Positions 33,409-53,221 of a stretch of DNA of 64,000 nt are shown piece by piece. The translations under genes and the position numbers were made by a program. Numbering within the stretch: the stretch's first letter is position 1; every line of letters begins with the position of its first letter. Under the pieces are notes generated by a model. That model ran no database searches, was not told where the DNA came from, and worked only from the letters and a program-made list of their open reading frames with translations. This DNA is from Desertivirga xinjiangensis (GTDB lineage Bacteria > Bacteroidota > Bacteroidia > Sphingobacteriales > Sphingobacteriaceae), in the NCBI RefSeq assembly GCF_024436435.1, contig NZ_JAFMZP010000002.1, positions 248,001-312,000 on the forward strand. The letters are read 5' to 3'.

Positions 33409-33416
33409 TAATTTTG
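33409..33416 (+). promoter_or_regulatory. -7 box of the first PUL sigma gene
   Basis: TAATTTTG matches TAnnTTTG exactly and ends 10 bp before the ATG, so the mRNA should have a very short leader. No TTTG at the usual distance upstream is seen. Confidence 0.4.
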
Positions 33417-33426
33417 TTTTTGAGTT

Positions 33427-34023
33427 ATGTCTGATAATTTTTCCGGTATCTCTGAAGAAAATCGCTTGTTTTCCTTGTTATGTGAAGGGAATAAAGAGGC
33501 TTTTGATAAGATCTATAAGCTTTATTGGAAAAAGTTGTTTGTATACCTGGTAAAGGTGATCCAGGACAAAGAAGCAGCGCAGGATATCGTTCAGGAGATT
33601 TTTGTTTCCTTATGGCTGCGCAGGGATAGCATTCCACACTCTACCACACTAGCAGGTTACCTTTTTACGGCAGCCCGCTTCAAAGGTATCAGCCATATAC
33701 AAGCCTCTGCTAACAAAACCAAACATCTGGACAATCTCATAAAATATTATTCTGAGCAGCGTGATGTGGTTAATGAAGAATATGCCGCCAAAGAACTAAA
33801 TCTAGTATTGAATAAGGAAATCGAAAAGCTACCACCCAAAATGAGGGAAGTATTCGTCTTAAGCCGAAAGGAAAATTTAAGCTACAAGGAAATATCTGAA
33901 AAACTGAATATTTCAGACAAAACTGTTAAAAAGCAGATTAACAATGCCTTAAAGCACTTTAAATTAATCCTCAATGAAGGCTCCTTTTACCAGATATTAG
34001 TGCTAGGGTCTTACCTGCTTTAG
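33427..34023 (+). CDS. ECF RNA polymerase sigma-70 factor (FecI-like) of the polysaccharide locus
   Basis: 198 residues with sigma region 2 (DKIYKLYWKKLFVYLVKVIQDKEAAQDIVQEIFVSLW) and region 4 (MREVFVLSRKENLSYKEISEKLNISDKTVKKQINNALKHF). It resembles the Bacteroidales-type FecI family. It is directly followed by fecR and susC, so it should drive the susC-susD operon when the receptor signals through FecR. Confidence 0.95.
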   Translation: MSDNFSGISEENRLFSLLCEGNKEAFDKIYKLYWKKLFVYLVKVIQDKEAAQDIVQEIFVSLWLRRDSIPHSTTLAGYLFTAARFKGISHIQASANKTKHLDNLIKYYSEQRDVVNEEYAAKELNLVLNKEIEKLPPKMREVFVLSRKENLSYKEISEKLNISDKTVKKQINNALKHFKLILNEGSFYQILVLGSYLL

Positions 34024-34136
34024 CCCTATTGACAAAAAATCTTACCAATTGCCTGAAATTTCCTTCTTTTGCTCTAAATATTTTTTTCAAATGGGTCTAC
34101 TACCAAAGGCTATTTTTGGAGATATTTATAATAAAC

Positions 34137-35090
34137 ATGGATAGAAAAGAGCTGGACCAACTCCTAAAGCGTTATTCCGAGGGTAAGTGTACCGCGCAGG
34201 AAAAGATCATTTTAGAACAATGGTTTGATGCTCAATCTAATGCCGGTAGTTGGGATTTTGAAGAAAAGGAGGAGACCCATACAGAAGAAATCATCAAAAA
34301 ACGTATCGACAGGCGATTAGAATCTCGCAAAACTCAATGGGGGATAATATTTAAGGCCGCCGCTGTTCTGCTCCTTGTTTCCAGTATCATATTCTTTAAC
34401 AGAACTAAGATCTATAATGCAGTTAACCCCGTTGTTTATATCGAAAAACACTCTTCAGAAGATCAGCAGATAAAAATCACCTTAAGCGATGGCTCGAAGG
34501 TCTGGTTAAATGAAAACAGTAAGTTAAAATACCCCGAAAAGTTTAATGGCGAGGTAAGAGAGGTGACGCTTGAAGGCGAGGCATATTTTGATATACAGCA
34601 CGACAAAGAAAAGCCCTTCATTGTAAAATCCTTACACACTACCACGCAGGTTTTAGGTACAGCTTTTAATATAAGAGCATATCCTTTCCTGAGCAATGTA
34701 AGTGTAGCTGTAACGAGAGGAAAGGTACGGGTATCTGAGCAAAGCGCTGGTGGTGCATCAGAAAGCACTGTTCTTTTACCTAATGACCAGGTTAGCGTCG
34801 ACCGGACAACCGGCACTCTAAGAAAGATCAGGGTTGATTCCTCCGGTGTTACAAGCTGGCAGAAAGGATATATCACCTTTAATGCGGAGCGGCTGGCTGA
34901 CATTAGTGCTATGCTGGAAAGTGAATATCCTGTGAAGATTCGTTTCAGGCAGGAAGAACTGAAGGACTACAGGCTGACTGCAGGCTTTAGCAGCAAAGAA
35001 CGCATAGAGGATATTTTAGAGATCCTCGCCCGTATCAATAGCTTGTCATATCAAATTGACGGTAATACCGTGTACTTTACCCGCAATTAG
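34137..35090 (+). CDS. FecR-family anti-sigma regulator
   Basis: About 317 residues. A cytosolic helical N-terminus (MDRKELDQLLKRYSEGKCTAQEK) and one transmembrane segment (FKAAAVLLLVSSIIFF) precede the FecR domain (LSDGSKVWLNENSKLKYP, VTLEGEAYFDIQHDKEKPFIV) and a C-terminal DUF4974 domain. It should bind the STN domain of SusC in the periplasm and hold the sigma factor inactive until signalled. The frame continues upstream to 34029, but ATG 34137 gives the family start. Confidence 0.93.
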   Translation: MDRKELDQLLKRYSEGKCTAQEKIILEQWFDAQSNAGSWDFEEKEETHTEEIIKKRIDRRLESRKTQWGIIFKAAAVLLLVSSIIFFNRTKIYNAVNPVVYIEKHSSEDQQIKITLSDGSKVWLNENSKLKYPEKFNGEVREVTLEGEAYFDIQHDKEKPFIVKSLHTTTQVLGTAFNIRAYPFLSNVSVAVTRGKVRVSEQSAGGASESTVLLPNDQVSVDRTTGTLRKIRVDSSGVTSWQKGYITFNAERLADISAMLESEYPVKIRFRQEELKDYRLTAGFSSKERIEDILEILARINSLSYQIDGNTVYFTRN

Positions 35091-35238
35091 GCCCCGACCC
35101 AGCAATCAGGTTTAGATCTGGATATCTAAAAATAAAAATCTGAATATCAGTATTTTATATTTTTTCTATAGTTTTTTAACCACCTGCCTACTACCTAGCC
35201 CTGCTTGTGGCGATATATCTGTAAACACGTTACACAAT

Positions 35239-35340
35239 ATGGCACAATCAAGCACATATCCACCGGGGAAATTCATCACCCAACATTATCAAAAGGCAAA
35301 TACCGAAAAATTTGATGACATTTTTCTCTCACTGATATGA
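35239..35340 (+). CDS. Possible 33-residue leader frame overlapping susC
   Basis: The frame starts at ATG 35239 (MAQSSTYPPGKFITQHYQK) and ends at TGA 35338-35340, which overlaps the susC ATG at 35337 in the ATGA arrangement of translational coupling. It is the only short frame in the 246-bp gap. No family is recognised and it may be chance; an upstream inverted repeat (35111-35117/35124-35130) also lies here. Confidence 0.3.
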   Translation: MAQSSTYPPGKFITQHYQKANTEKFDDIFLSLI

Positions 35341-38300
35341 AAATTTTACACCGTATACTTTTGGTTGTTTTGATTGGATCTTGTTCTTTAATGGCGCCCG
35401 AATCTAAAGGACAAACAGCTTCTGGCTCAAAGATCAGTGTTGATATTAAAGATCAAAGCCTTAAGTCTGCTTTATCGATCATTCAAAAGGCATCAGGCCT
35501 GCAAGTAACCTATAACGAAGATTTGGTTGCTGCCTATAAAAAAGTGGATCTTACCTTAACTAATGTCTCTCTTACCACGGTTATGGACCGCTTATTACAA
35601 AGCACCGCATTAAAATATCAGATTACAGGGAACAAGATCATTATCCTGCCTAAACAAGAAAACAGGCCGGCACTTCAGGGAAAACATTTTATCAGCGGCA
35701 AAGTAGTTGATGAAAGGAACGAGCCTCTGCCCGGGGCTACTGTTAAGATCGCAGAGTTAAACAGCAGTATCTCCACCGATAGTGAAGGATTATTTAAAAT
35801 AGAGGCTGATGAGGGAGTTTATACACTTGGAGTAAGCTTTTTGTCTTATGAAAGCAAAACAATTCAAAACGTTAGCACCGGTCCCAGGGAGATCCTCATT
35901 GTATTGCAATCAAGTAGTCAGCAATTACAAAATGTAGTAGTAACGGCATTGGGCATAAAGCGTGAAGAAAAAAGTTTAGGCTACGCGGTCACTAAAATAG
36001 AAGGAGAGGAGATTTCAAAAACAGCTCCTAACAACTGGGTAAATGCTTTATCGGGCAAAGTGCCGGGCCTGAATATTTCAAAAGCCGGTACCGGGCCTGG
36101 AGGGTCGGTAAGGATCACGCTGCGGGGACAAAACTCACTGGACCTGGATAAAGGAGAGCCTCTGATCGTCATCGATGGTGTACCCGTAACGAGCGGAATG
36201 ATCGGGAATAATGGGATAAGTTATGGGGCCACCGGCAACACTGAAACCCCGGTGGATTACGGCAACGCCCTAAGCGATATCAATCCGGAAGATATACATG
36301 ATGTAACCATCTTACGGGGGCCTTCGGCAGCAGCCCTTTATGGATCACGGGCGGCTTCGGGCGCTATACTGATCACCACGAAATCTAACAATCAAAAGAA
36401 AGACCGGATTGCAGTTGCATTTACTAGTAGCGTAACCTTTGATGACGTTCTGCATTATCCTGATTTTCAGTATGAATTTGGCTCTGGTAATGCAGGCAAA
36501 CATCTTTATTATTCCTTTGGTGCCAGTCCCGACGGTCCCAGCACTCACTCTTCACGATCCTTCGGACCAAAGTTTGAAGGCCAGCAATTTTACCAGTATG
36601 ATCCTGAGACCCAAACAACAGGAACCGCAAAAACACCCTGGCTTGCAGATAAAAACTATGTTAAAGACGCATTTAACAGGGGAGTGACTTATAATAATAC
36701 GGTCTCGGTGACAGGCGGAGATACTAAAAATGCGGTACGGTTCTCTTATAACGACCTCCGCAATGAACATATCTTGCCCAATACAGGCTACTCATTTAAC
36801 AGGCTTTCTTTTTCGAGCAACAGCAAGCTAAACAAGTTCCAGCTAAGCACCAGGGTTAATTACTACCATAAAGGAAGTGATAACCTGCCGCTGTCGGGCT
36901 ATAACTCCAATACTTATATGTATGCTCTGATGTACGGTGCTGCAAACATTCCATTTAGCTGGAACTCCAATTATTGGGCCCCGGGTAAAGAAGGAATTGA
37001 TCAAAACAACCGGCTGAACCCGGCAATTGATAATCCTTATTTCACCTTGTATGAAAGTTTGAACACAGTAGATTACGATCGCATTTTTGGGAGTATAACG
37101 GCTGTTTATTCTTTTAATAAAAAGATGAATTTACAGCTGAGGGGTGGTACTGATCAAAGTACATCGTTCAGAACCTTCAGCAGACCATACAGTAGTGTGC
37201 GTTTTGCGGTTGGACGCTACCAGGAGCAGCATGTGGTTTCCAGGGAACAAAATTTTGATTTTCTATATAAATATGATGAAAAGCTTTCAAAGAATGTTGG
37301 GCTGGTTTTCTCAGCCGGGGGAAGTGTCACCTACCAGCAGACAAACAACACTTCTACGCTGGCCGAACGCTTAAGCTACCCGGCAATGTACACCCTGGCA
37401 AATGCAAAGGACCGGCCACTTGTTGATCCCGAAAGGTCAAAAAAAGAGGTACAAAGCTTATACGGCCTAACCCAGCTTTCCTACAAAACATTTGCGTTTC
37501 TGGACCTTTCAGGAAGGAACGACTGGTCGAGCGCACTTCCTAAAGAAAATTGTTCCTATTTTTACTATTCAGCATCGGGGAGCCTTGTTGTCTCGGAAAT
37601 GCTGAAACTCGCCAATAAAAACGTACTTTCCTTTCTAAAGCTAAGAGGATCAATTGCACAGGTGGGTAATGATACTAGCCCTTATAGAACTACCCTGTAC
37701 TATACTAACTCTGATTTCGGAGGGAGTTATAATAACCCAACCGTATTGCCGGGAGGCAAAAATTTAAAACCTGAGATCATTACCAATCGGGAGGCAGGGG
37801 CAGACATACGGTTTCTTAATAGTCGCTTAAACCTTGATCTTACCTATTACAATTCAAATAGCGAAAATCAGATCCTCGAAGTGCCTATTGATCCGGCAAC
37901 TGGTTACCAGCGCCGGGTGTTTAATGCCGCATTAATAAACAATACCGGCTGGGAACTTGCGCTTAGCAGCAGTCCGCTCTCAAAGAACAGCAACCTGAAA
38001 TGGAAGACTACAATTACGTGGTCCACAAACAGAAGTGAAATCAGGGAACTATCTCCCGGAGTGGAATCTATCATTATGGCTACAGGCCCCAGGGGCTATA
38101 TTGAAGCAAGGGTGGGCGGAGCAATAGGCGATATCTATGGTTCAGGCTATCTACGTTCTCCGGATGGGCAGATTGTGAACGACGCCAGTGGATACCCCAT
38201 CGTAGATACTGAAAATATGAAATTTATCGGTTCTGCCGTCCCGGACTGGAAAGCTGGAATTCAAAACCAGCTTAGCTTTAAAAACTGGAGTTTCGGGTTC

Positions 38301-38774
38301 TTGTTTGACGGGCAGAAAGGCGGTGATATTTACTCCTTCTCAAACTCTGTTCTAGCCGGGAACGGAAAACTGACCAGCACCTTGCCCGGTCGTTATGAGG
38401 GTTTAATAGGAGAGGGAGTGCAGCAAAATGCTGACGGTTCTTATCGTCCGAACGATGTTCTTGCCGATGCGGCCGGCTATTATAATGCAAAATACCTGAG
38501 AGATAATGTGGAAGCAAATACTTTTGATGCGTCCTATATTAAATTGCGGGAAGCTAATTTAGAGTTCCGCTTCAGTCCAAAGACGCTGAAGGCTCTGCAT
38601 GTCCGGGGCGCTTCACTTAGCATTTACGGACGGGATCTTTTGCTATTCACCACATTCCCTTTATACGATCCGGAAATAGCTACGCTAAACAGGAATCGTA
38701 TAGAACCCGGTTTTGAAACCGGACAGTTTCCTTCAACCAGAAGTTTTGGCACAACCCTTAAAGTATCTTTTTAA
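35337..38774 (+). CDS. SusC/RagA-family TonB-linked outer membrane receptor with STN domain
   Basis: 1145 residues. Signal peptide, STN signalling domain (about 33-105, ISVDIKDQSLKSALSIIQ to ITGNKIIIL), carboxypeptidase-regulatory-like domain (FISGKVVDERNEPLPGATV), TonB box, plug with the SusC signature (LRGPSAAALYGSRAASGAILITTK) and a 22-strand barrel, ending GTTLKVSF. It imports glycan fragments captured by SusD, using TonB energy. The STN domain shows that it signals to FecR/sigma. Length is normal. It begins 247 bp after fecR and is followed closely by susD. Confidence 0.96.
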   Translation: MKILHRILLVVLIGSCSLMAPESKGQTASGSKISVDIKDQSLKSALSIIQKASGLQVTYNEDLVAAYKKVDLTLTNVSLTTVMDRLLQSTALKYQITGNKIIILPKQENRPALQGKHFISGKVVDERNEPLPGATVKIAELNSSISTDSEGLFKIEADEGVYTLGVSFLSYESKTIQNVSTGPREILIVLQSSSQQLQNVVVTALGIKREEKSLGYAVTKIEGEEISKTAPNNWVNALSGKVPGLNISKAGTGPGGSVRITLRGQNSLDLDKGEPLIVIDGVPVTSGMIGNNGISYGATGNTETPVDYGNALSDINPEDIHDVTILRGPSAAALYGSRAASGAILITTKSNNQKKDRIAVAFTSSVTFDDVLHYPDFQYEFGSGNAGKHLYYSFGASPDGPSTHSSRSFGPKFEGQQFYQYDPETQTTGTAKTPWLADKNYVKDAFNRGVTYNNTVSVTGGDTKNAVRFSYNDLRNEHILPNTGYSFNRLSFSSNSKLNKFQLSTRVNYYHKGSDNLPLSGYNSNTYMYALMYGAANIPFSWNSNYWAPGKEGIDQNNRLNPAIDNPYFTLYESLNTVDYDRIFGSITAVYSFNKKMNLQLRGGTDQSTSFRTFSRPYSSVRFAVGRYQEQHVVSREQNFDFLYKYDEKLSKNVGLVFSAGGSVTYQQTNNTSTLAERLSYPAMYTLANAKDRPLVDPERSKKEVQSLYGLTQLSYKTFAFLDLSGRNDWSSALPKENCSYFYYSASGSLVVSEMLKLANKNVLSFLKLRGSIAQVGNDTSPYRTTLYYTNSDFGGSYNNPTVLPGGKNLKPEIITNREAGADIRFLNSRLNLDLTYYNSNSENQILEVPIDPATGYQRRVFNAALINNTGWELALSSSPLSKNSNLKWKTTITWSTNRSEIRELSPGVESIIMATGPRGYIEARVGGAIGDIYGSGYLRSPDGQIVNDASGYPIVDTENMKFIGSAVPDWKAGIQNQLSFKNWSFGFLFDGQKGGDIYSFSNSVLAGNGKLTSTLPGRYEGLIGEGVQQNADGSYRPNDVLADAAGYYNAKYLRDNVEANTFDASYIKLREANLEFRFSPKTLKALHVRGASLSIYGRDLLLFTTFPLYDPEIATLNRNRIEPGFETGQFPSTRSFGTTLKVSF

Positions 38775-38777
38775 TAT

Positions 38778-40247
38778 ATGAAAAACGTATCTGCATTTTT
38801 CTATACGCTATTGTCGATCCTGACAATGGTGAGCACCAGTTCGTGCACGAAAAATTTTGACGATATAAACACCGATCCTAACAGGCTGACAGCAGTAGCC
38901 CCGGGAACTTTACTGGCCCCAGCACAGTTCGATGGTATGTGGCTCATCACAAAACGGGCCCACCGGATAAATAATGAATTGATGCAGTATTCCGTGGAAA
39001 TAGGTTCATTGAACGATTTCACCAGGTATGTATTCAGAGAGAACGAATTTGATGCCATCTGGTCTACCCTTTACCGCCGGGCGAATGACATGCATGAGAT
39101 GTATCAGCTGGCTGAAAAGATCAATGACGCAAACAATATGGGAGCTGCCCTCGTGATGAGGGCCTGGCTGGTATCGAATCTGACCGATATGTTTGGCGAA
39201 ATTCCCTATACAGAGGCCTTCAGAGGGAAAGAAGAATTATACTATCCAAAATTTGATTCTCAGCAATCCATCTACGCAAGCCTGCTTACCGACCTGAAGA
39301 GAGCCAACGACCTTTTTTCCGAAACCAAACCTTTTGACAGTTCAGATCTCATTTACAATAACGACCCGGTGAAATGGAAGAGATTTGCGAATTCATTGCG
39401 CCTCCGCTTATTAATGCGCGTTTCCGGAAAGGAAGAAATGGATGCCCCTGCCCAGATCAACGAGATGTTTAGCAATCCAGATAAGTTTCCATTATTTGGA
39501 AGTAATGACGATGAAGCCATGTTGAGATATACTGGGGTAAAACCCTTCATCAATCAGTTCTTTGAAATGTCCGACTCTGAATTCAATGGAAACAAAAGAA
39601 TGGGTAAGCACTTAATGGACCTCATGAATTCTACGGTAGACGGCAGACGATTCAGGTATGCTACAAAAAACACGGCGGGAGCCTATGTAGGTATTCCCAG
39701 CGGATATACAGAACAGGAGGGCGTGGAAATGGCTGCAAACAATGGCATCGGTACCTCAAGATATGCTACCACCCTCAAAGCGGATGATTACCCTTTGCCC
39801 ATTTTGACTTGGTCGGAGGTTAACTTTTGCTTAAGCGAGGCAGCACTTAAAGGCTGGATCGCGGCCGATGCACAAACGTATTACAATAAAGGTATAGAAG
39901 CATCCTGGCGTCAGTGGCGCTGTACCTGGGACGGAACAGCAGGCACAAATTACCTGAACCGGTCAACAGTACGATTTACGGGGGCAACTGCTACCATGGA
40001 AAGGCTGATGAATCAAAAATACATCGCGATGTTCTTCTCGGGCTTCGAAGCATGGTATGATTACAGGAGAACTGGTTTGCCAAATCTTCCTATAGGACCG
40101 GCTGTGGAAAATGACAGGATCTTGCCGAGAAGATTCGAATATCCGCTTATTGTCAAGGCTACCAATAAGGAAAATTATGAGGAGGTTTCTTCAAGGATCG
40201 GCGGCGATAACCTGAGAGTAGATGTTTGGTGGGCACAAAAGCAGTAA
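38778..40247 (+). CDS. SusD/RagB-family glycan-binding lipoprotein
   Basis: 489 residues, of the SusD-like-2 type. A lipobox ends STSSCTKNF (Cys near 23), followed by the typical INTDPNRLTAVAPGTLLAPAQ and TPR-like helices (WLVSNLTDMFGEIPYTEAF), and it ends with EAWYDYRRTGLPNLP. The protein forms the surface lid of the SusC transporter. It lies 3 bp after susC. The sugar-binding site cannot be predicted from sequence. Confidence 0.95.
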   Translation: MKNVSAFFYTLLSILTMVSTSSCTKNFDDINTDPNRLTAVAPGTLLAPAQFDGMWLITKRAHRINNELMQYSVEIGSLNDFTRYVFRENEFDAIWSTLYRRANDMHEMYQLAEKINDANNMGAALVMRAWLVSNLTDMFGEIPYTEAFRGKEELYYPKFDSQQSIYASLLTDLKRANDLFSETKPFDSSDLIYNNDPVKWKRFANSLRLRLLMRVSGKEEMDAPAQINEMFSNPDKFPLFGSNDDEAMLRYTGVKPFINQFFEMSDSEFNGNKRMGKHLMDLMNSTVDGRRFRYATKNTAGAYVGIPSGYTEQEGVEMAANNGIGTSRYATTLKADDYPLPILTWSEVNFCLSEAALKGWIAADAQTYYNKGIEASWRQWRCTWDGTAGTNYLNRSTVRFTGATATMERLMNQKYIAMFFSGFEAWYDYRRTGLPNLPIGPAVENDRILPRRFEYPLIVKATNKENYEEVSSRIGGDNLRVDVWWAQKQ

Positions 40248-40278
40248 GCCTTAAAACTATAAGCGCCAACAAAGTACT

Positions 40279-41190
40279 ATGTTCTCCAAGTTATCCATTA
40301 TTTTCATGTTCTCTTCGGTAAGCAGATTTACGGCCTTCCTGGTAGTTGTGACTATAACGTCTTCTCTTTTTTCTTGTAAAAAAGAGAAGGAAGAAGTGTC
40401 CGTTAGCCAGCACGAAGTATTCAAAATACTGTCATACAATGTTTATGAAGGCTTTAGGGGGGATCAGCAAAACATAGCAAACTTTAAAGCCTGGATAGAT
40501 ACCGTTAAACCGGATGTAATTGCACTGCAGGAAATGAAGTACTTTACGAAGGCGAGCCTGAAGAGCTTTGCCTTGGAAATGGGCTATCCCCACACCCTGA
40601 TGTTCCATGAAAGCGGACTTCCGGTAGCACTGGTTTCACGTTATCCAATTACCGATGTCAAGCAGGTGCCGTCAGACCTTCACCTGATACAGGCCAAAGT
40701 GCTGGATTACAACCTTATGGTGGTTCACTTGAGCCCGCTCACTTACGAGAAAAGAAGACAGGAAATCGAGCTGGTGCTTGAACGATGCAGAGATTTAGCA
40801 AAAGACGAAAAAACGCTGATCATGGGCGATTTTAATAATATGTCTCCGCAGGATGCGACTTTTTACAACAACTCTGAAAAGATGGCTTTAGTGAGGCTGA
40901 GCGAAGCCAACAACCCGGAGGTAAAGATCCTGAATAATGGGAATATCGACTACTCAACCATTCAGGCGCTAATGGATAACGGCTTTTATGATTCGTGGAA
41001 AATGTTCAGAAACTCGTACGAAAAGAGTGCGCCCACAAAGTTACGGTCACATAACAATTACACGCGGATAGACTATATCTGGTTGAATGAGCCACTATTA
41101 AACGACTACCTCAAATCCTACTTTATAAAAGACTCTTTTACCCATTACCTCTCTGATCATTACCCGATGGTTCTGCTCTTAAAAAAATAA
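40279..41190 (+). CDS. Endonuclease/exonuclease/phosphatase-fold enzyme (EEP), lipoprotein
   Basis: 303 residues. The N-terminus has a lipoprotein-like signal (ITSSLFSC, Cys near 34). The EEP catalytic blocks are complete: LSYNVYEG (metal Asn), ALQEM (Glu), VVHLSP, MGDFNNMSP, TRIDYIW and SDHYP (catalytic His). EEP enzymes are metal-dependent phosphodiesterases or phosphatases, including sphingomyelinase and inositol phosphatase types. In this glycan locus the substrate is probably a phospho-sugar or phosphoglycan, inferred from context only. A paralogue follows 1 bp downstream. Confidence 0.9.
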   Translation: MFSKLSIIFMFSSVSRFTAFLVVVTITSSLFSCKKEKEEVSVSQHEVFKILSYNVYEGFRGDQQNIANFKAWIDTVKPDVIALQEMKYFTKASLKSFALEMGYPHTLMFHESGLPVALVSRYPITDVKQVPSDLHLIQAKVLDYNLMVVHLSPLTYEKRRQEIELVLERCRDLAKDEKTLIMGDFNNMSPQDATFYNNSEKMALVRLSEANNPEVKILNNGNIDYSTIQALMDNGFYDSWKMFRNSYEKSAPTKLRSHNNYTRIDYIWLNEPLLNDYLKSYFIKDSFTHYLSDHYPMVLLLKK

Positions 41191-41191
41191 A

Positions 41192-42088
41192 ATGACAAAG
41201 AAATACACGCTTTTTACTGGCCTGCTACTGATCTTGTTTACCGGGCTTTTTGCCGGAAATTCCAAGCAAAACACGCAGGTTAAAAAAGATCAAACACCTA
41301 AACCTTCGTTTAAGATCCTTTCATATAATGTTTACGAAGGATTCAGAAAAGATAGCATTTACATCAAAGCATTCCAAAAATGGGTGAAAGAAAAAGACCC
41401 CGACGTAGTAGCCTTCCAGGAATTAAACGGATTCTCCAAGGAGAAGCTGATAGCGATGGCAAAAAATGCAGGCTACCGGTATACGGTTTTACAAAAACGA
41501 GCGGGCTTCCCCTTAGCTCTCATGTCAAAATACCCTGTTTCCAATGTAAGAAAAGTCACAGAAGGAATGCAGCACGGTCTTCTCTACGGGAAAGTATTAA
41601 ACTATCATCTCTTTATTACTCATTTAGACCCTAGGGCTTATGAAAAGCGGATTTCCGAAGTAGACACCTTGCTAAAGTACCTCCATCTTATTCCTAAAAA
41701 TGAAAAGATCCTGCTAATGGGCGATTTCAATAATATGTCACCCTTAGACAAAAAGGATTACGATAATCCTGCGAAAATGAAACTCGTACTCAACTCAGAG
41801 AAAAACAACCTCGAAACCAGGATCACCAGGAATGGAGAAATTGACTATACGGCCATTCAAAAATTACTAGATGCCGGCCTGTACGATTCCTGGCGCCTAT
41901 TCCACCAGGAGTATGAAAAAAGTGCACCTACCAAGATCAGGAATCATAACAATTATACACGCATCGATTACATCTACATAAACGCTGCGCTGAAAAATGA
42001 TTGCATCGCCGCAGAGCTCGTAAAAGACGATCTCACCGACGTGCTGTCCGATCATTATCCGATGCTGATTACCCTTAAAAACAGATAA
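41192..42088 (+). CDS. EEP-fold enzyme, secreted paralogue
   Basis: 298 residues, clearly homologous to its neighbour along the whole length (SYNVYEGF, MGDFNNMSPLD, IDYIYINAALK, SDHYPMLI). Here the signal peptide is a conventional cleavable one (FTGLLLILFTGLFAG) without lipobox, so the two copies probably differ in place: lipid-anchored and soluble periplasmic or secreted. All catalytic residues are present. The gene starts one base after its paralogue. Confidence 0.9.
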   Translation: MTKKYTLFTGLLLILFTGLFAGNSKQNTQVKKDQTPKPSFKILSYNVYEGFRKDSIYIKAFQKWVKEKDPDVVAFQELNGFSKEKLIAMAKNAGYRYTVLQKRAGFPLALMSKYPVSNVRKVTEGMQHGLLYGKVLNYHLFITHLDPRAYEKRISEVDTLLKYLHLIPKNEKILLMGDFNNMSPLDKKDYDNPAKMKLVLNSEKNNLETRITRNGEIDYTAIQKLLDAGLYDSWRLFHQEYEKSAPTKIRNHNNYTRIDYIYINAALKNDCIAAELVKDDLTDVLSDHYPMLITLKNR

Positions 42089-42091
42089 TAG

Positions 42092-43201
42092 ATGATGAAG
42101 TTTAATATAAAAAAGATCACACTAATACTGGTCCTAAGCTTTGCAGGCTCCCAGGTATTTGCCCAAAAAACAAATAACTTAAAGTATATAAGCGCCCAAT
42201 CCCTTACTATATCCGGAAAGGGGATCTCTACCACCAATACTTACGATCGTGTAGATACAGCTAAATATAAAGGTTTACCACCCAGAGTAGCGCAGTTGTT
42301 AACTAATTCTGCTGGTTTAGCCATTCGTTTTACCACTAACAGTACCGTTATTTCGGCCAAATGGTGTGTTACCCGTAGCAGACCGTCGACCGTTGTGATG
42401 CCTGTGACACAAAAGGGGGTCGACCTGTATATTAAAAACGGAAACCAATGGCAGTTTGCCGGCATTGGCAAGGCAACGGTAAATAATGGCTGTAACGAGG
42501 AGATCATTATTAGCCGGATGGATAATTCTGAAAAAGAATGCTTGCTGTATTTACCCCTATTTGATGCGGTAACCGGTGTTGAAATAGGAATTGATAGAAA
42601 AGCAGAGATCAAGGCAGCAGCCGAACCTTTCGCCAAAAAGGTATTGATCTATGGTTCAAGCATCGTACATGGAACCGGTGCCAGCAGGCCGGGTATGGCC
42701 TATCCGGCACGCTTATCCCGCTTAACAGGCATTAACTTCATTAACCTGGGAGTAACCGGCAGTGCCAAAATGGAACCTGAAGTGGCCGATATGATCGCTC
42801 AAATAGATGCCGATGCTTATATCCTGGATTGTGTACCTAACACTAATCCCGATCTGATCAAAGAGCGTACGGCTTACCTGGTGAACACCATCAGGAAGAA
42901 ACAGCCTGGAAAGCCCATTATTGTGATGCAAAGCGTAGTCCGGGAAAGCGGCTATTGGGATAAGGTTTTAGGCCAGCAGGTTAAAAATCAGAACATTAAC
43001 ATCCAGCAGGAAGTGCTCGCCTTATTACAAAAGGATGTAAAAGATCTGTATTTCATCACTTCAGAAAACATGCTCGGTACTGATCACGAGGGTACCGTGG
43101 ATGGCGTACATCCAAGCGATCTGGGGTACGACCGCATGGTAAGGTACCTGCAACCTCTAATCACTGAAGTTTTAAGTAAGTACGATATAAAAGCACAATA
43201 A
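42092..43201 (+). CDS. GxDLY/SGNH-family esterase
   Basis: 369 residues with a signal peptide (ending SQVFAQ). Residues about 40-165 form the N-terminal beta-sandwich with the GVDLY motif (GxDLY domain), and 185-365 are an SGNH hydrolase with the blocks YGSSIVHGTG (nucleophile Ser), LGVTGSAK, PNTNPD and DGVHPSDLGY (catalytic Asp and His). Such proteins deacylate sugars or lipids; the acyl group here is unknown. It lies 3 bp after the second EEP gene, so it belongs to the operon. Confidence 0.92.
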   Translation: MMKFNIKKITLILVLSFAGSQVFAQKTNNLKYISAQSLTISGKGISTTNTYDRVDTAKYKGLPPRVAQLLTNSAGLAIRFTTNSTVISAKWCVTRSRPSTVVMPVTQKGVDLYIKNGNQWQFAGIGKATVNNGCNEEIIISRMDNSEKECLLYLPLFDAVTGVEIGIDRKAEIKAAAEPFAKKVLIYGSSIVHGTGASRPGMAYPARLSRLTGINFINLGVTGSAKMEPEVADMIAQIDADAYILDCVPNTNPDLIKERTAYLVNTIRKKQPGKPIIVMQSVVRESGYWDKVLGQQVKNQNINIQQEVLALLQKDVKDLYFITSENMLGTDHEGTVDGVHPSDLGYDRMVRYLQPLITEVLSKYDIKAQ

Positions 43202-43225
43202 AATTATTTCTCAAAAATTAGCGTT

Positions 43226-44716
43226 ATGAAAAAATTATTTCTTGTTGGATGTATAGCACTGTCGTTTATAGGGACGCAGGCACAAACTCCTAAAAGCTGG
43301 ACCTATAACTTTGGAACGGCCGAAGCAGATCTTTCTCCAGTTTCGGCAGGCGGAATTTTGTCAGCAAATGATGGGGTGAGCGGGCACACCCATGCTTCCT
43401 TGCCTGCGCCGGCTGATGGGCAAATTGCGAGAGTTTGGACCGGAAACCAAAATGCTGCAGGCTATACTTTGAATAACTCTGAAGTTCCGGGTTTCGGTTC
43501 AGGAAGCAGGTTACGGTTTTTGACTGCTCCTACATCTTCAACCAGTAAGTTCTCCATATTAAATATTGCAAGTGGTGCTACTCCGGGGCTACTAAGTGTT
43601 AAGTTTAAGTTGCGGTTTCATGCAGGTGTAGCGGCAGATTATAGATTTGCTATCGGTGGTGATGCTGGTACTGTCAATTGGACTACAAAACATGGTAGCT
43701 CTCAATTCTCTAATCAATTCAATTTTAACGATATAAATGCTCTTCCTGCATTTTTACTTATGCATTGGAAACTGACCGGCTCAAGCTATAAGTTATTGAT
43801 AAGAGAGCAGAAAAGTACGAGTACATTGACAAATTTGGATGGATATAAAGAACATGAGGTAGAATTTAAAAATGGCGAGAACTACGACATCGAGATATAT
43901 TCAAATAATACCTCAAATACTGACAACTCCAGCTATATAAAGAACAAGGTAACTTATACGGTTGCTGCGCGCTCAAGTCAAATATGGGTAAACGGTCAAC
44001 AATTATTATACAGCGCTAATCAACCTAATTTCACCCCAACAACGGATAGTTACAACCTGGCTGCCGGAGATCCGCTTAATGCCTTCATGTTTTTAGGCTA
44101 CAATAATGCTGATAACAAAGCTCTGGCTTATTTAGACGATTTCGTTTACGCTAATTACATTACAGACTTAGTAACCTTACCTGTGAAACTCTCTTCATTC
44201 ACCGCCACAAAACAACATAATGGCGTTAAACTAAACTGGTCTACAGCCTCAGAGCAGGATAATTCTCATTTCGATGTATTACGTTCGGCAAACGGGAAAG
44301 ATTTTACGGCGATAGGTGTGGTGCAGGGAAGTGGCACAAGCAACATCAATAAGAATTACAACTACATAGACCACAATTCCCTTAGCGGCACCTCTTACTA
44401 TCAGTTAAGACAGGTTGATTTCAATGGTAGATCTTCGGTATCTGATGTGCTTGCTGTTGAAAATAGATTAAATGCAACTGAGTCAGTCCTGTCTTTTAAA
44501 GATCAAAACCTTGAGTTGGTTTTGGATGCTACTAAAGCAGGAGAGGGTTTCGTGAGAATAGCTGACTTAGCTGGTAAAACTGTTTTGAAGAGGAGCCTCA
44601 CTATACAAAAAGGAAACAATACCCTTCAGGTGCCAGTGCAACTGGAAAAGGGAATATATGTAGTTTCTTTAAGTACTCTAGATGGTGTGGTGACCAAAAA
44701 AATTGCATATTTATAA
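43226..44716 (+). CDS. T9SS-exported surface protein with C-terminal sorting domain
   Basis: 496 residues. Signal peptide (GTQAQ), an N-terminal region (25-320) of strand-rich, lectin-like appearance that I do not recognise, then a linker, VKLSSFTATKQHNGVKLNWSTASEQDNSHF as a fibronectin-like repeat, and a C-terminal type A sorting tail (FVRIADLAGKTVLKRS, TVQV, GIYVVSL, KKIAYL). It is expected to be exported by the type IX secretion system and to be anchored to the surface. In this operon it may bind the substrate. No catalytic motif is visible. Confidence 0.85.
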   Translation: MKKLFLVGCIALSFIGTQAQTPKSWTYNFGTAEADLSPVSAGGILSANDGVSGHTHASLPAPADGQIARVWTGNQNAAGYTLNNSEVPGFGSGSRLRFLTAPTSSTSKFSILNIASGATPGLLSVKFKLRFHAGVAADYRFAIGGDAGTVNWTTKHGSSQFSNQFNFNDINALPAFLLMHWKLTGSSYKLLIREQKSTSTLTNLDGYKEHEVEFKNGENYDIEIYSNNTSNTDNSSYIKNKVTYTVAARSSQIWVNGQQLLYSANQPNFTPTTDSYNLAAGDPLNAFMFLGYNNADNKALAYLDDFVYANYITDLVTLPVKLSSFTATKQHNGVKLNWSTASEQDNSHFDVLRSANGKDFTAIGVVQGSGTSNINKNYNYIDHNSLSGTSYYQLRQVDFNGRSSVSDVLAVENRLNATESVLSFKDQNLELVLDATKAGEGFVRIADLAGKTVLKRSLTIQKGNNTLQVPVQLEKGIYVVSLSTLDGVVTKKIAYL

Positions 44717-44727
44717 TTTGTTTAAAT

Positions 44728-44761
44728 GAAATTAAGCAGGGCGGAAGCCCTGCCTAATTTC
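44728..44761. terminator. Intercistronic hairpin between the T9SS gene and GH92
   Basis: A 15-bp stem with one mismatch (GAAATTAAGCAGGGC, 44728-44742, and 44747-44761) and a GGAA loop lies 12 bp after the T9SS stop. It has no T-tract, so it could be a partial terminator or an mRNA-stabilising hairpin that lowers GH92 expression relative to the upstream genes. Confidence 0.6.
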
Positions 44762-44776
44762 AATATCCTTAACGCA

Positions 44777-46855
44777 ATGGCTCGTTTACTTTGTTTAAAA
44801 AATTCGCTTCTCTTGTTCTTGGTATGCTGCTTTGGTAATCTTCAGGCCCAAAACACCTCTCCGGATATCGCAAGCCTGGTAAACGTCTTTTTGGGAACAT
44901 CAGGGGATCACGGTCAACTATCGCCTGCTGCCAGTTATCCATTCAGTATGTTAAGCATCGGGCCTCAAACTTATCCCAAGCTACATGCCGGGTATGAATA
45001 TGAGGCTAAACGATTCCTTGGTTTTACGCACAACAGGTTCGAAGGAGTAGGCTGTCAGGGCAGTGGAGGGAATATTTTGATTAAACCTTTTATTGGGACA
45101 TCAAGCCAGCCTGACCTGGTTAAGTTAGATCAATCTGCAAGCCCTGGTTACTACCAGGTCTCCTTTACAAATAAAATTAAGGCCGAAATGTCCGTCTATG
45201 GTAAGTCGGGCATGCATCGTTACCAATTCCCGGAAGGACAAGAAACTAATGGTTTTTTTATAGACCTTTCTCACTCCCTGGCTAACAAGTTTGTGGCAGA
45301 ACAGCACCAGGTAAAGGGTAATAGCATCAGTGGCTGGGTACAAGCCCGTACCACATGTAATGCAGGTACTTATAAAATCTATTACTACCTTGAGTTCCCC
45401 CGGAATGTGCTCTTCAAAGAGCAAAATGCTCACCAGCTGATCGCTGAGTTTCCTTCCAAATTGAGAAATGCCGAAATCAGGGTAGCGCTGTCATCAGTGA
45501 GTGAGGCCTATGCCAGGGCATCCTTATATACCGGAAGTTTTGATGAAATGAAGGCCATGTCGCGTAAAGCCTGGAACCAGGAGCTAAGTAAGATCAGGGT
45601 GGACGGAGACATCTCCAGGAAAAAGCTGTTTTACTCGCTTTTATATAGAACATTGCAATCTCCATACAACCTGTCTGAAGAGGACGGCACATTCAGAGCT
45701 ACAGATGGCAGCATTCAAAAATCAAGGGAGACCATGTACAATGGCTGGGCTATCTGGGACAATTACCGTACGCAACTGCCCTTGCTGTCTGTAGGCTGGC
45801 CAGAAAAGTACCAGGGAATGGTGTCATCACTTGCCAGGCTTTATGAATCAGGCAAAAAGGATTTCGCAACGAATACCGAACCGAGTAATACCGTCAGGAC
45901 CGAACATGCCATTGTTGTCCTGCTGGATTCTTACCGTAAGGGTTATAAGATAGATTTCGAAAAGATAGCAGACTCTTTAATAAAGGACGCCGACCGCTTA
46001 GATTTCTCCAAACCAGACAAAGCACTCGAATCAAGTTACGATAACTGGGCCCTGTCAGAGATCTTAGCGATCATTAAAAGACCGGAATTAAGCAGTATAT
46101 ATAAAGCAAAGGCGCTGCAATACAAAGACTACTGGAATAAAGATTTTAAAGACATTACCAAAAAAGATGTAGATAAAGTGCAGGCCAGGGGATTGTACCA
46201 GGGCACAATATGGCAGTACCGCTGGTTCGTTCCTTTTGATATGAAGGGGCTGATCGAACTTTCCGGCGGCATGAATAATTATACGAAGCAACTGGATTAC
46301 TTCTTTGAAAATGACCTGTACAACCATGCTAATGAGCCCGATCTGCAAGCCCCACTAATGTATAATGTTACCACAACTCCGGCAAAGTCACAAGAGCTGA
46401 TGCACCGCTTCGCTGTGGATACGGTTATCCAATATTACTTTAATGAAAATAGCAGGGGAATAGACCCCTTTGTAGATGTGGTTTATAAAAATCAGCCGAA
46501 AGCCTACATCAGAACAATGGATGATGACGGAGGCGCTATGTCTGCATGGTATGTGCTGACTGCTTGTGGTTTCATGCCCGCTTGTCCCGGCTGGCCTGTC
46601 TATTACTTAAACGTACCGCTTTTCAAAACAGCTTCTTTTACCTTGCCAGGCAACAAGTCGTTTGAGGTAAGCGTAGAGAACTACGCAGCTGACAGTAAAT
46701 ACATCAAAAAGGTTATTTTGAATGGTAAAGTGCTCGACCGTAATTATATTACACATGAGGAGATCCGGAATGGCGGGACTCTTAAAATTGTTGCTTCCAC
46801 CCGCCTGGAGGATACGATGATAATAAGCAAACCATGGATTTCGAAAGTAGAGTAA
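44777..46855 (+). CDS. GH92-family alpha-mannosidase
   Basis: 692 residues. A signal peptide (residues 1-25, ending GNLQAQ) precedes the GH92 N-terminal domain (VFLGTSGDHGQLSPAASYPFSM and GFTHNRFEGVGCQGSGG) and the (alpha/alpha)6 catalytic domain with NEPDLQAPLMYN (catalytic acid Glu) and DDDGGAMSAWYVLTACGF (Asp pair). GH92 enzymes are calcium-dependent exo-alpha-mannosidases; some members cleave mannosyl phosphodiesters. The sequence is somewhat divergent and shorter than the usual 740 residues. I choose ATG 44777, because the frame start at 44726 lies in the preceding hairpin. Confidence 0.92.
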   Translation: MARLLCLKNSLLLFLVCCFGNLQAQNTSPDIASLVNVFLGTSGDHGQLSPAASYPFSMLSIGPQTYPKLHAGYEYEAKRFLGFTHNRFEGVGCQGSGGNILIKPFIGTSSQPDLVKLDQSASPGYYQVSFTNKIKAEMSVYGKSGMHRYQFPEGQETNGFFIDLSHSLANKFVAEQHQVKGNSISGWVQARTTCNAGTYKIYYYLEFPRNVLFKEQNAHQLIAEFPSKLRNAEIRVALSSVSEAYARASLYTGSFDEMKAMSRKAWNQELSKIRVDGDISRKKLFYSLLYRTLQSPYNLSEEDGTFRATDGSIQKSRETMYNGWAIWDNYRTQLPLLSVGWPEKYQGMVSSLARLYESGKKDFATNTEPSNTVRTEHAIVVLLDSYRKGYKIDFEKIADSLIKDADRLDFSKPDKALESSYDNWALSEILAIIKRPELSSIYKAKALQYKDYWNKDFKDITKKDVDKVQARGLYQGTIWQYRWFVPFDMKGLIELSGGMNNYTKQLDYFFENDLYNHANEPDLQAPLMYNVTTTPAKSQELMHRFAVDTVIQYYFNENSRGIDPFVDVVYKNQPKAYIRTMDDDGGAMSAWYVLTACGFMPACPGWPVYYLNVPLFKTASFTLPGNKSFEVSVENYAADSKYIKKVILNGKVLDRNYITHEEIRNGGTLKIVASTRLEDTMIISKPWISKVE

Positions 46856-46879
46856 TAAAAAAAGAATGATAAAAAGAAA

Positions 46880-46912
46880 TGCCGGCATAACATCATTCGA
46901 TTTATGCCGGCA
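46880..46912. terminator. Hairpin terminator at the end of the PUL
   Basis: An 11-bp stem TGCCGGCATAA (46880-46890) and its complement (46902-46912) with an 11-nt loop lies 25 bp after the GH92 stop and before the EamA gene. There is no T-tract on the plus strand. Confidence 0.65.
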
Positions 46913-46977
46913 AAAATCCGTTCATCTAATACAACCAGCTCTCTATTATTTTTTATTTATGCTTAGTTTCGCGGGAT

Positions 46978-47892
46978 ATGCGCAATGCCGTCAATTTAAG
47001 CCTGAAACACCTGTTTCTGGTTCTCTTTATCGTTCTGATTTGGGGAATTAATTTTATTGCTGTCTATGTGGGACTAGAAAGTTTTCCCCCTTTCCTGTTG
47101 TCTGCTATCCGCTTCGGGCTTTCGGCCTTGCCCTGGGTGTTTATGCTGCCCAAACCCGATGCTCCATTAAAATTTGTTTTAGGCTACGGTCTGTTCAATT
47201 TCGCTATGCAATTCGGGCTGCTTTTCAGTGGAATTCATCTCGGTTTGTCTCCGGGACTCGCTTCGCTTCTTCTTCAGATTTCAGTATTCTTTTCTATGGG
47301 CCTGGCATTTATATTCTTTAAGGACAAACCAAGCGTTCTGAAAATATGTGGTTCGCTGATATCCTTCGTTGGAATTGGCATTGTTGCTGCACATATTAAG
47401 GGGGGTGCCACCTTTATTGGCCTTGTACTTACCTTGCTTGCTGCGTTCTCCTGGGCGGCCGGCAATATGTTCACAAAAAAAGTTAACGCCCAATCCCCAC
47501 TTTCGCTTGTGGTCTGGGGAAATCTGATCGCTTTTCCCTTTATGGTAGTGCTCTCTTTGGTCTTGGAAGGGCCTGCTTTAATTGAGCACTCACTGCATAA
47601 GGCGTCCTGGGAAACTATTGCTGCAGTTTTCTATATCGTTTATATTTCCACACATATTGGCTACGGTGCCTGGGGATTTCTTTTGAAGTCTTACTCTCCG
47701 TCAGCCGTGGTTCCTTTTACCCTCCTGATCCCGGTTGTAGGCTTTTTTAGTTCAGCAGTATTTCTAGGCGAAGACCTGCCTTCCTGGAAACTTTTAGCCT
47801 CCTTGTTTATTATCGGCGGACTTGTTTTTGGCTTGCTTGAGCGGCAGATACGTTCGCTTTTGCGGATCCTGGCTCCTGAAAAAGCAGGTTAA
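46978..47892 (+). CDS. EamA-family drug/metabolite transporter
   Basis: 304 residues with ten hydrophobic segments in two five-helix EamA repeats, typical for the family (WGINFIAVYVGLESFPPFLLSAIRFGLSALP; the second repeat has SWAAGNMFTKKVN). It resembles the YedA/RhaT group of amino-acid or metabolite exporters. The substrate is unknown. The ATG at 46978 follows a terminator, so it should have its own promoter. Confidence 0.92.
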   Translation: MRNAVNLSLKHLFLVLFIVLIWGINFIAVYVGLESFPPFLLSAIRFGLSALPWVFMLPKPDAPLKFVLGYGLFNFAMQFGLLFSGIHLGLSPGLASLLLQISVFFSMGLAFIFFKDKPSVLKICGSLISFVGIGIVAAHIKGGATFIGLVLTLLAAFSWAAGNMFTKKVNAQSPLSLVVWGNLIAFPFMVVLSLVLEGPALIEHSLHKASWETIAAVFYIVYISTHIGYGAWGFLLKSYSPSAVVPFTLLIPVVGFFSSAVFLGEDLPSWKLLASLFIIGGLVFGLLERQIRSLLRILAPEKAG

Positions 47893-48393: not shown

Positions 48394-48942
48394 ATGGAGC
48401 TTTGCGGCGATATCATGGGTGAAAATGTTGACCTGGTTAATTTTGAGTTACTCTACAATCGTTGGAGTGGACTTCTCCATCAGTATGCTTTTTATATTGT
48501 TAGGGATGAGGAGGTAGCCGGAAGCCTGGTCAATGATCTGTTTGTGCAATTGTGGTTCAAGCAAACCAAGCCCGAAAATCTAAAGGGGTATTTGTTCAGG
48601 GCAATTAAAAATGCATCGATCAATTACCTGGCTACCAGGCAAAACTATCCCCTTACCTTATTAGACCAGGAAGAGCTCACTACAATTTCTGACCTTTCAT
48701 CTATAAGCCCCGAATCTGACCATGCTGACAAGCTATCGATGTTGCAGAATTTAATAAGCCAGCTTCCTCAAAAGCGACAGCTGGTTTTTAGAATGCATCG
48801 TATAGAGGGCTTTAGCTATGCCGAAATTGCTGAACTTTTACAAATATCGGTAAGGACGGTCGAAGATCATTTGTCGAAAGCGATGCAGTTCATTCATACT
48901 CATTCAAAACCTTTTCTTTGCAGAAAGTTAACCGAAGCTTAA
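48394..48942 (+). CDS. ECF RNA polymerase sigma-70 factor (FecI-like) of the phosphatase locus
   Basis: 182 residues with region 2 (LLYNRWSGLLHQYAFYIVRDEEVAGSLVNDLFVQLWF) and region 4 (KRQLVFRMHRIEGFSYAEIAELLQISVRTVEDHLSKAM). It is followed by fecR and a TonB receptor with an STN domain, the same cell-surface signalling layout as in the first locus. Confidence 0.94.
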   Translation: MELCGDIMGENVDLVNFELLYNRWSGLLHQYAFYIVRDEEVAGSLVNDLFVQLWFKQTKPENLKGYLFRAIKNASINYLATRQNYPLTLLDQEELTTISDLSSISPESDHADKLSMLQNLISQLPQKRQLVFRMHRIEGFSYAEIAELLQISVRTVEDHLSKAMQFIHTHSKPFLCRKLTEA

Positions 48943-49000
48943 TATTTCCAGCCCGTATTTCCTGCCGCCAAAACTGTCTTACAGTTGAACGCAAATACAT

Positions 49001-50047: not shown

Positions 50048-50052
50048 AAAAG

Positions 50053-50073
50053 CCGCTTCCTGGAAGGAAGCGG
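50053..50073. terminator. Hairpin between fecR and the TonB receptor
   Basis: A 9-bp stem CCGCTTCCT (50053-50061) and complement (50065-50073) with a GGA loop follows the fecR stop by 5 bp. It may be a terminator separating the sigma-fecR unit from the receptor operon. Confidence 0.55.
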
Positions 50074-50151
50074 ACTCTGTTACAGCCATTTGCCGGCAAG
50101 CTGCTGGCTGTTTAATAATTTAAATCGGAAAAATTTAAACAAAACAAATTT

Positions 50152-53208: not shown

Positions 53209-53221
53209 TTTTTAGAAAAGT

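Follow-up and report, generated by a model that had tools for sequence, protein, structure and literature searches.

The window analysed here is a 64,000-nucleotide stretch of the genome of Desertivirga xinjiangensis, a bacterium related to Pedobacter (contig NZ_JAFMZP010000002.1, positions 248,001 to 312,000). Nine consecutive genes in it, all on the plus strand from 33427 to 46855 by open reading frame calls, form one tight operon that ends with a glycoside hydrolase of family GH92. This GH92 carries Gln492 in place of the general-acid Glu of the family, and alignments with its PDB matches place the retained general base at Asp601. Judged by its sequence, the enzyme likely cuts a mannosyl phosphodiester. 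The best explanation of the operon, to which we give slightly more belief than doubt, is a glycan utilisation locus whose target polymer has alpha-mannose linked through C1 to phosphate; we are somewhat more confident that the locus as a whole is for a phosphorylated glycan of some kind. The wording that we favour, probably the right one, is a locus for a mannosyl-phosphodiester glycan of unspecified source.

Gln at the acid position and grouping with CcMan5

The protein is a GH92 by PF07971 (294 bits against a cut-off of 24.6; 2.5e-87), PF17678 (134 bits) and TIGR01180 (283 bits against a cut-off of 249.6). At the aligned acid position, the classical enzyme BT3130 has Glu (chain position 519) and the characterised but distant relative CcMan5 has Gln (chain position 536). 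In the available part of PMC5930347, the general acid and base of BT3130 are Glu535 and Asp637, 102 residues apart. The aligned Glu and Asp of the BT3130 chain are likewise 102 residues apart, which fixes the residue numbering. The window GH92 lacks the general-acid Glu of a classical GH92 and has what marks the CcMan5 type, namely Gln at the acid position together with the base Asp, and a grouping with CcMan5 apart from the Glu-type GH92s. CcMan5 targets Man-PO4-Man phosphodiester linkages, according to the same partial source (PMC5930347).

The best PDB match of the window GH92 was CcMan5 (2xsg/4aq0), at 3.2e-62 with the single sequence, and BT3130 was close behind at 1.7e-61; a profile of 12 GH92 sequences gave 2.7e-89 and 1.4e-87, respectively. 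Trees were built with FastTree from 25 of the 111 distinct Gln sequences (the window and 24 taken at random) and all 78 Glu sequences. The split that joins the Gln clade with CcMan5, apart from all 78 Glu-type sequences, had a support of 0.998, and 0.988 after three active-site motif regions had been deleted. In IQ-TREE the same split received an ultrafast bootstrap value (UFBoot) of 100 with a subset of 34 sequences, composed of 22 Glu sequences, 10 Gln sequences and 2 references; the Glu sequences were chosen first for nearness to the Gln clade and then at random. The trees suggest that the window GH92 is a sister of CcMan5 with the same rare active-site change.

Then, how could a GH92 work without its acid? 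Phosphate is a leaving group that does not need protonation, so Gln can be tolerated at the acid position when phosphate is the group to be released. The primary paper on CcMan5, by Tiels in 2012, is said to give an account of the CcMan5 Gln. In AnGH92A, an Aspergillus GH92 of the ordinary kind, the E598Q mutant was wholly inactive, including on mannan and mannosides, as the available part of PMC12858847 states. Because the same exchange kills an ordinary GH92 on mannan, the Gln clade probably cuts bonds with a leaving group that needs no acid, e.g. phosphate.

The Gln residue is a property of a whole clade. Among 201 genomes of the host's family, the host included, 52 have an orthologue with at least 48% identity, and the next matches drop to 33%. 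All 51 orthologues other than the window's own (47-69% identity) have Gln, and the Asp triplet and the NEPD motif are likewise kept in 51/51. Glu, on the other hand, was found in 15 of 15 readable non-orthologue GH92s, among which are the seven other GH92s of the host genome (16 were taken, one of them unreadable at the acid residue). An alignment of 211 GH92s of at least 550 residues, drawn from the window and loci L039-L089 and L100-L249 with duplicates included, contained 132 Gln, 79 Glu and no other residue. Gln was also aligned in 80/80 named loci, among them L178, which a motif regular expression had missed. Named members of the clade, taken from the best 80 of 239 relatives, belong to Pedobacter, Mucilaginibacter, Chitinophaga, Pontibacter, Rufibacter, Hymenobacter, Niastella and others.

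Gene content of the operon

The genes are listed in the table below. The earlier note had read the run as sigma factor, FecR, SusC, SusD, two enzymes of the endonuclease/exonuclease/phosphatase (EEP) fold, an SGNH esterase, a surface protein of the type IX secretion system (T9SS) and a GH92; Pfam and NCBIfam bear out each label, and the limits it gave, 33409-46912, are correct to within about 60 bp.

Table. Features of the operon in the window
Feature	Position	Strand	Basis
Extracytoplasmic function (ECF) sigma factor, FecI type	33427..34023	+	TIGR02985, 9.2e-43
FecR-type anti-sigma factor	34029..35090	+	FecR and FecR_C domains
SusC/RagA TonB-dependent importer with N-terminal STN signalling domain	35337..38774	+	TIGR04056, 1.1e-162
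SusD-like surface binding lipoprotein	38778..40247	+	SusD-like_2, PF12771, 8.8e-111; lipobox-like SSC (by eye)
EEP1, EEP-fold enzyme (phosphodiesterase/phosphatase/nuclease)	40279..41190	+	Exo_endo_phos, PF03372
EEP2, paralogue of EEP1	41192..42088	+	Exo_endo_phos; signal peptide without lipobox (by eye)
SGNH esterase, GxDLY and Lipase_GDSL_3 type	42092..43201	+	Pfam
Secreted protein with T9SS sorting tail	43226..44716	+	TIGR04183
GH92, Gln (CcMan5) type, predicted alpha-mannosyl-phosphodiester hydrolase	44726..46855	+	PF07971, TIGR01180, Gln492
Gln492 codon, at the position of the general-acid Glu in GH92	46199..46201	+	position computed from the start of the reading frame
Asp601 codon, counterpart of the general base of BT3130, Asp637	46526..46528	+	alignment

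The gaps between successive genes are 5, 246, 3, 31, 1, 3, 24 and 9 bp, and the true start of the FecR gene may be other than the listed TTG. SusC adjoins SusD and the glycan enzymes run in the same direction, as in a polysaccharide utilisation locus (PUL). The next gene, of the EamA family (46978), begins 122 bp past the end of the GH92, and a simple scan of 46800-47020 gave no terminator-like site. The two EEP genes match Exo_endo_phos at 1.5e-17 and 9.5e-16. The T9SS tail, of type A, is above the cut-off of TIGR04183 (27.5 bits against 23; 2.3e-6) and just below that of PF18962 (24.4 against 27). The SGNH protein has a nearly full-length match to PDB 4lhs (7.8e-114), a close relative that bears the label 'Uncharacterized protein' and gives no hint of a substrate.

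Recurrence of the locus and of its core

Locus L039 has all nine genes in identical order, with 47-74% identity to those of the window, and Pedobacter sp. ASV28 (L111) has eight of the nine in the same order, its stretch beginning inside FecR. Since the set recurs in these two loci, it is no chance grouping. The EamA gene is not downstream of the operon in either of them, and the AraC and CN-hydrolase genes found upstream in the window do not precede the operon in L039. Wide conservation of the locus as a unit was considered and rejected: among 51 orthologous GH92 loci read, only L039 has the full set, and most Gln-GH92s have other neighbours. Examples are, in Pedobacter, a PIG-L-domain protein with SSF and DUF2911 and, in Mucilaginibacter, DUF218, a 291-residue gene, SusCD and a glycerophosphodiester phosphodiesterase (GDPD). 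The PIG-L-type setting lies upstream of the Gln-GH92 in eight loci (L049, L051, L052, L054, L056, L061, L067 and L068), which share a protein of 822-833 residues, an SSF transporter and a DUF2911 protein; the PIG-L domain was found in L049, the one scanned. Long DUF218 genes (414-436 residues) occur near the Gln-GH92 in L044, L045, L047, L048, L055, L060, L069, L078-L081 and L083, and 10 of the 17 listed for 31 genomes lie within 9 kb of one.

A smaller core built around SusD and EEP1 is found more often. EEP1 has a match of at least 50% identity in 12 of 400 genomes of the order, the host included. A SusD homologue lies directly 5' of EEP1 in all 12 stretches, and SGNH is present in 10. EEP2 follows EEP1 as a separate gene in six and is fused in two (L301 and L303); four (L307, L308, L309 and L311) have no EEP2 between EEP1 and SGNH. 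Ten of the 12 core genomes carry a Gln-clade GH92, with 53-72% identity in those other than the host. For five of these ten (G000, which is the host, G109, G163, G698 with L111, and G782 with L144) the Gln residue was seen directly; the other five are assigned by identity. Against a base rate of 52/201 the count of 10/12 has a binomial probability of 5e-5, relatedness being ignored. In six genomes (G000, G109, G698, G684, G769 and G782) the GH92 lies 1.2-9.7 kb from EEP1, and such close linkage is a better argument for a tie between core and GH92 than mere presence. Mucilaginibacter galii (L144) has EEP2-SGNH directly before DUF218, a 309-residue gene, SusC, SusD, GH92 and GDPD; its DUF218 and GDPD share 52% and 73% identity with genes of L044 and L045 that were scanned with Pfam. 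This is a second, differently built joining of EEP2-SGNH with a separate Gln-GH92 run.

EEP enzymes and the T9SS surface protein

EEP1 and EEP2 are 47% identical. Catalytic roles are attributed to the invariant residues of EEP enzymes, and both proteins keep all of these in an alignment of 11 sequences, in which N54, E85, H150, D184, N186, D265 and S292-D293-H294 are conserved in 11/11, as expected of the EEP superfamily. A lipobox-like Cys was seen by eye in EEP1 of the window, L039 and L111 and not in their EEP2s, and because of this difference EEP1 is predicted to be membrane-anchored and EEP2 periplasmic. The predicted model of EEP1 (pLDDT 82.6) matches ExoIII, NExo and APE1 in structural alignment, with Z scores near 24 and roughly 20% identity, and Foldseek also returns TDP2, a tyrosyl-DNA phosphodiesterase. 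Among the best 50 matches each of Foldseek and VIA for EEP1 there were no sphingomyelinase-like or sugar-phosphatase rows, a result that excludes nothing. The match of the model identifies the EEP fold and not the phosphate substrate.

For the T9SS protein, a PDB sequence search gave no match and the AlphaFold model had a mean pLDDT of 48.4 (three sequences). The best clue to its role comes from gene fusions. In both L301 and L303 an EEP2 domain comes after a fused domain that shares 36-37% identity with residues 1-316/321 of the T9SS protein, and for this reason the N-terminal domain probably serves an EEP, as a binding domain. In two Chitinophaga loci (L113 and L114) the second gene after the Gln-GH92 encodes a long protein with an N-terminal EEP domain (1245 residues in L113); the L113 protein also has a C-terminal stretch that shares 28% identity with the C-terminal portion of the window T9SS protein.

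In other families EEP2 has relatives with 30-36% identity, and four of the eight stretches read around them (L100, L102, L103 and L104) have nearby genes picked out by eye as sulfatases, SASA esterases, a GH30 or an alpha-fucosidase-family gene. Such neighbours fit the trimming of decorated glycans. An 895-residue protein at L104:4487-7174 joins an SASA esterase to an EEP domain, another joining of an acyl-ester enzyme with an EEP. A further SusCD locus of the host genome (L107, C22:225200-245100) contains a pair of EEP genes and encodes a BACON-DUF5689 protein; it is perhaps a scavenging locus of another kind.

Phosphodiesterase genes near GH92s

EEP and GDPD genes were counted on the same strand within 6 kb of GH92s. 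The EEP profile hidden Markov model (HMM) was trained on 20 EEP genes of 11 genomes, none from the window. The counts omit loci L100-L109 (L100-L108 had been picked for EEPs), identical proteins, and Glu-GH92s in Gln-GH92 loci; the 64 Glu controls came from 60 chosen regions, 40 of them in genomes that have a Gln-GH92 too. An EEP or GDPD was near 25 of 111 Gln-GH92s vs 2 of 64 Glu-GH92s (p 4e-4), with 17/62 vs 1/41 (p 0.001) after collapse at 80% identity and 9/34 vs 1/31 (p 0.014) after collapse at 70%. The excess near Gln-GH92s is moderate, relatedness being handled roughly. GDPD by itself was near 18/111 vs 2/64 (p 0.012), and 4/34 vs 1/31 after collapse at 70% (p 0.36). With the Glu-GH92s of Gln-GH92 clusters kept as controls, the count for EEP by itself was 7/111 vs 1/78 (p 0.14). 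Among the PF03372 matches listed for the 52 carrier genomes, an EEP lies within about 5 kb of the GH92 in G000, G109 and G084 and at 9-11 kb in G099, G162 and G189. EEP as a general partner of the Gln-GH92 was rejected, as few carriers have a close EEP and the HMM count is borderline.

Proposed function and alternative substrates

The activities of all the enzymes, their topology and the order of steps are what we infer. Going by its family, a ligand on SusC, sensed via the STN domain, would release the sigma factor from FecR and turn the operon on. EEP1, probably a lipoprotein of the outer membrane, and the T9SS surface protein would see to the cutting of phosphodiester links outside the cell, the latter likely holding the polymer for an EEP. 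SusCD would import the pieces, and periplasmic EEP2 and the SGNH esterase would strip phosphate and acyl groups. Finally, the GH92 would free mannose from Man-alpha-1-phosphate caps without an acid catalyst, with Asp601 activating water. Directly downstream, at 48394-54493, lies another sigma-FecR-TonB-receptor unit (sigma and FecR by reading of the translations), in which no SusD was found and which ends in a purple acid phosphatase (53222-54493). In L086 one 20-kb stretch holds a Gln-GH92 together with a 52% identical phosphatase that has its own sigma-FecR-SusCD. The downstream phosphatase might finish the removal of phosphate.

Several observations weigh against a mannosyl-phosphodiester locus. 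In plain identity the window GH92 is no nearer to CcMan5 (31.2% over 565 aligned residues) than to the classical BT3130 (30.8% over 595), so that the link to CcMan5 rests on trees and motifs, and in the tree CcMan5 sits on a long branch. The nearest solved folds to EEP1 are DNA nucleases. The count of EEP by itself is borderline (7/111 Gln vs 0/64 Glu, p 0.049; 6/62 vs 0/41, p 0.08, collapsed at 80%; 5/34 vs 0/31, p 0.05, at 70%). The Gln-clade GH92 is far from EEP1 in four core genomes (G622, G704, G163 and G800) and absent from two (G104 and G623, whose best full-length matches are about 30%), so the EEP/SGNH core evidently has a job that does not require GH92. Lastly, ten of the 12 core genomes come from a single genus, g13; since 19 of at least 35 genomes there carry the clade anyway, the 8 of 10 carriers among them are no clear excess.

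The earlier note had proposed a phosphorylated, perhaps acylated mannose glycan as the target, such as fungal phosphomannan or a mannosylated phospholipid. For the last step, by the GH92, the proposal stands on the CcMan5 grouping, the shared Gln and the EEP/GDPD excess; with GH125 missing and GH76 weak, the fungal source is less likely, and we regard fungal phosphomannan as an unlikely glycan. The findings speak neither for nor against the mannosylated phospholipid. A true fungal alpha-mannan locus, feeding on yeast-type phosphomannan with the GH92 uncapping Man-P-6-Man and the EEPs stripping leftover phosphate, is a rather poor prospect as a whole. It would draw on the substrate already known for CcMan5, in the part of PMC5930347 available, and over the 201 family genomes GH125 was found in 49/52 genomes with a Gln-GH92 vs 78/149 others and strong GH76 (threshold 1e-20) in 41/52 vs 46/149, relatedness being ignored in both counts. 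However, GH76, GH125 and GH38 are all absent from 33427-46855, so that no backbone enzyme is linked. The host genome has no GH125 match and a best GH76 of 4.3e-7, which makes yeast mannan an unlikely carbon source for the strain; G109, the other sampled genome with the full locus, also lacks a GH125 match and has GH76 at 4.6e-5. It is on account of these findings that the source is left unspecified. The Glu-type GH92 genes of the host number seven, and six of them lie in a separate mannosidase-rich part of the genome, at C19:531833-560184 and C20:4644-8342. The phosphate might instead belong to a glycolipid or glycerophospho-glycan, the Gln-GH92s cutting Man-1-phospho-glycerol-like or inositol-like links while GDPD or EEP handles the other side of the phosphate. 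The GDPD excess within 6 kb and the M. galii locus, where EEP2-SGNH stands beside DUF218, SusCD, GH92 and GDPD, speak for such a substrate, but the excess loses its significance after collapse at 70% and the window locus has no GDPD; we think this improbable.

That the nuclease-like fold of EEP1 is to be taken at face value, the EEPs being secreted nucleases or phosphatases of a SusCD locus that scavenges phosphorus or nucleic acid and the GH92 a side activity, is also something we would not expect. Flavobacterium Pus loci with SusCD and phosphodiesterases are known from the accessible portion of PMC8115612, and the EEP1 model is closest to nucleases of the ExoIII/NExo/APE1 type. Yet nucleases dominate the rows shown for EEP1, so that the match says little about the substrate, and the sulfatases, SASA esterases, GH30 and alpha-fucosidase-family gene near distant EEP2 relatives weigh against this reading. 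The window has SusCD and EEPs, yet also a GH92 and its own ECF sigma/FecR, a control which, with an STN-bearing SusC, suggests from what is known of these families induction by a ligand over phosphate starvation. Least credible, and quite improbable, is that the Gln clade has lost catalysis, or cuts another activated bond, and acts as a binding protein. The dead AnGH92A E598Q mutant (PMC12858847, in part) would agree with it. Against it, an inactive enzyme should have drifted, yet the Asp triplet, the NEPD motif and the Gln are kept in all 51 orthologues; moreover, CcMan5 is active with the same Gln, as the available text of PMC5930347 reports.

A mannosyl-phosphodiester locus is an idea that one enzyme assay can test, given Gln492, a characterised distant relative and a short operon. 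Phosphodiester-linked sugars are present on fungal and bacterial surfaces. Only tentatively do we suggest, with more doubt than belief, that Bacteroidota have an unrecognised branch of GH92, its acid changed to Gln, for sugar-1-phosphodiesters, accompanied by SusCD systems with EEP, GDPD, SGNH and long DUF218 partners that harvest phosphodiester-linked glycans; if true, the window locus would be the founding example of a 'phosphoglycan utilisation locus'. Members of the clade are candidate uncapping enzymes for mannose-6-phosphate glycans on therapeutic proteins, a use in which the present uncapping enzyme is, we take it, CcMan5. The making of such glycans with an uncapping enzyme is described in the available parts of PMC9705852 and PMC5992200.

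Comparison with known systems

PULs, GH92, CcMan5 and Pus loci are all known already. Our search of the open-access literature turned up neither a CcMan5-type GH92 from Bacteroidota nor this gene set, which the earlier note had not recognised either; subscription papers lie mostly outside that literature, which makes the negative weak evidence. Nor did that literature describe a SusCD system for phosphodiester-linked sugars or hold anything on point about EEPs in mannan PULs.

The yeast alpha-mannan PULs of Bacteroides thetaiotaomicron, whose details are given here as reportedly known, and the Salegentibacter GH76 locus share SusCD and GH92 with the window locus, which differs in having no GH76, GH125 or GH38, in its ECF-sigma/FecR control and in its two EEPs. 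A term search of the accessible part of the Salegentibacter paper (PMC9213526) found no mention of phosphatase or phosphate. The Pus loci of Flavobacterium resemble the window locus in combining SusCD with phosphodiesterases; PUSI and PUSII have phosphoesterases instead of carbohydrate-active enzymes and are induced by phosphate depletion (PMC8115612, in part), whereas the window locus has a GH92, an SGNH esterase and its own sigma/FecR. Among single enzymes, BT3130 and BT3990, classical GH92 alpha-mannosidases, share the domains and the base Asp with the window GH92 and differ by keeping the acid Glu. CcMan5 of Cellulosimicrobium cellulans shares the family, the Gln at the acid position and the ANE-x-DLQAP and TMD-x-D-x-G motifs; it is actinobacterial, whereas the window GH92 sits in a SusCD operon with EEPs and an SGNH esterase.

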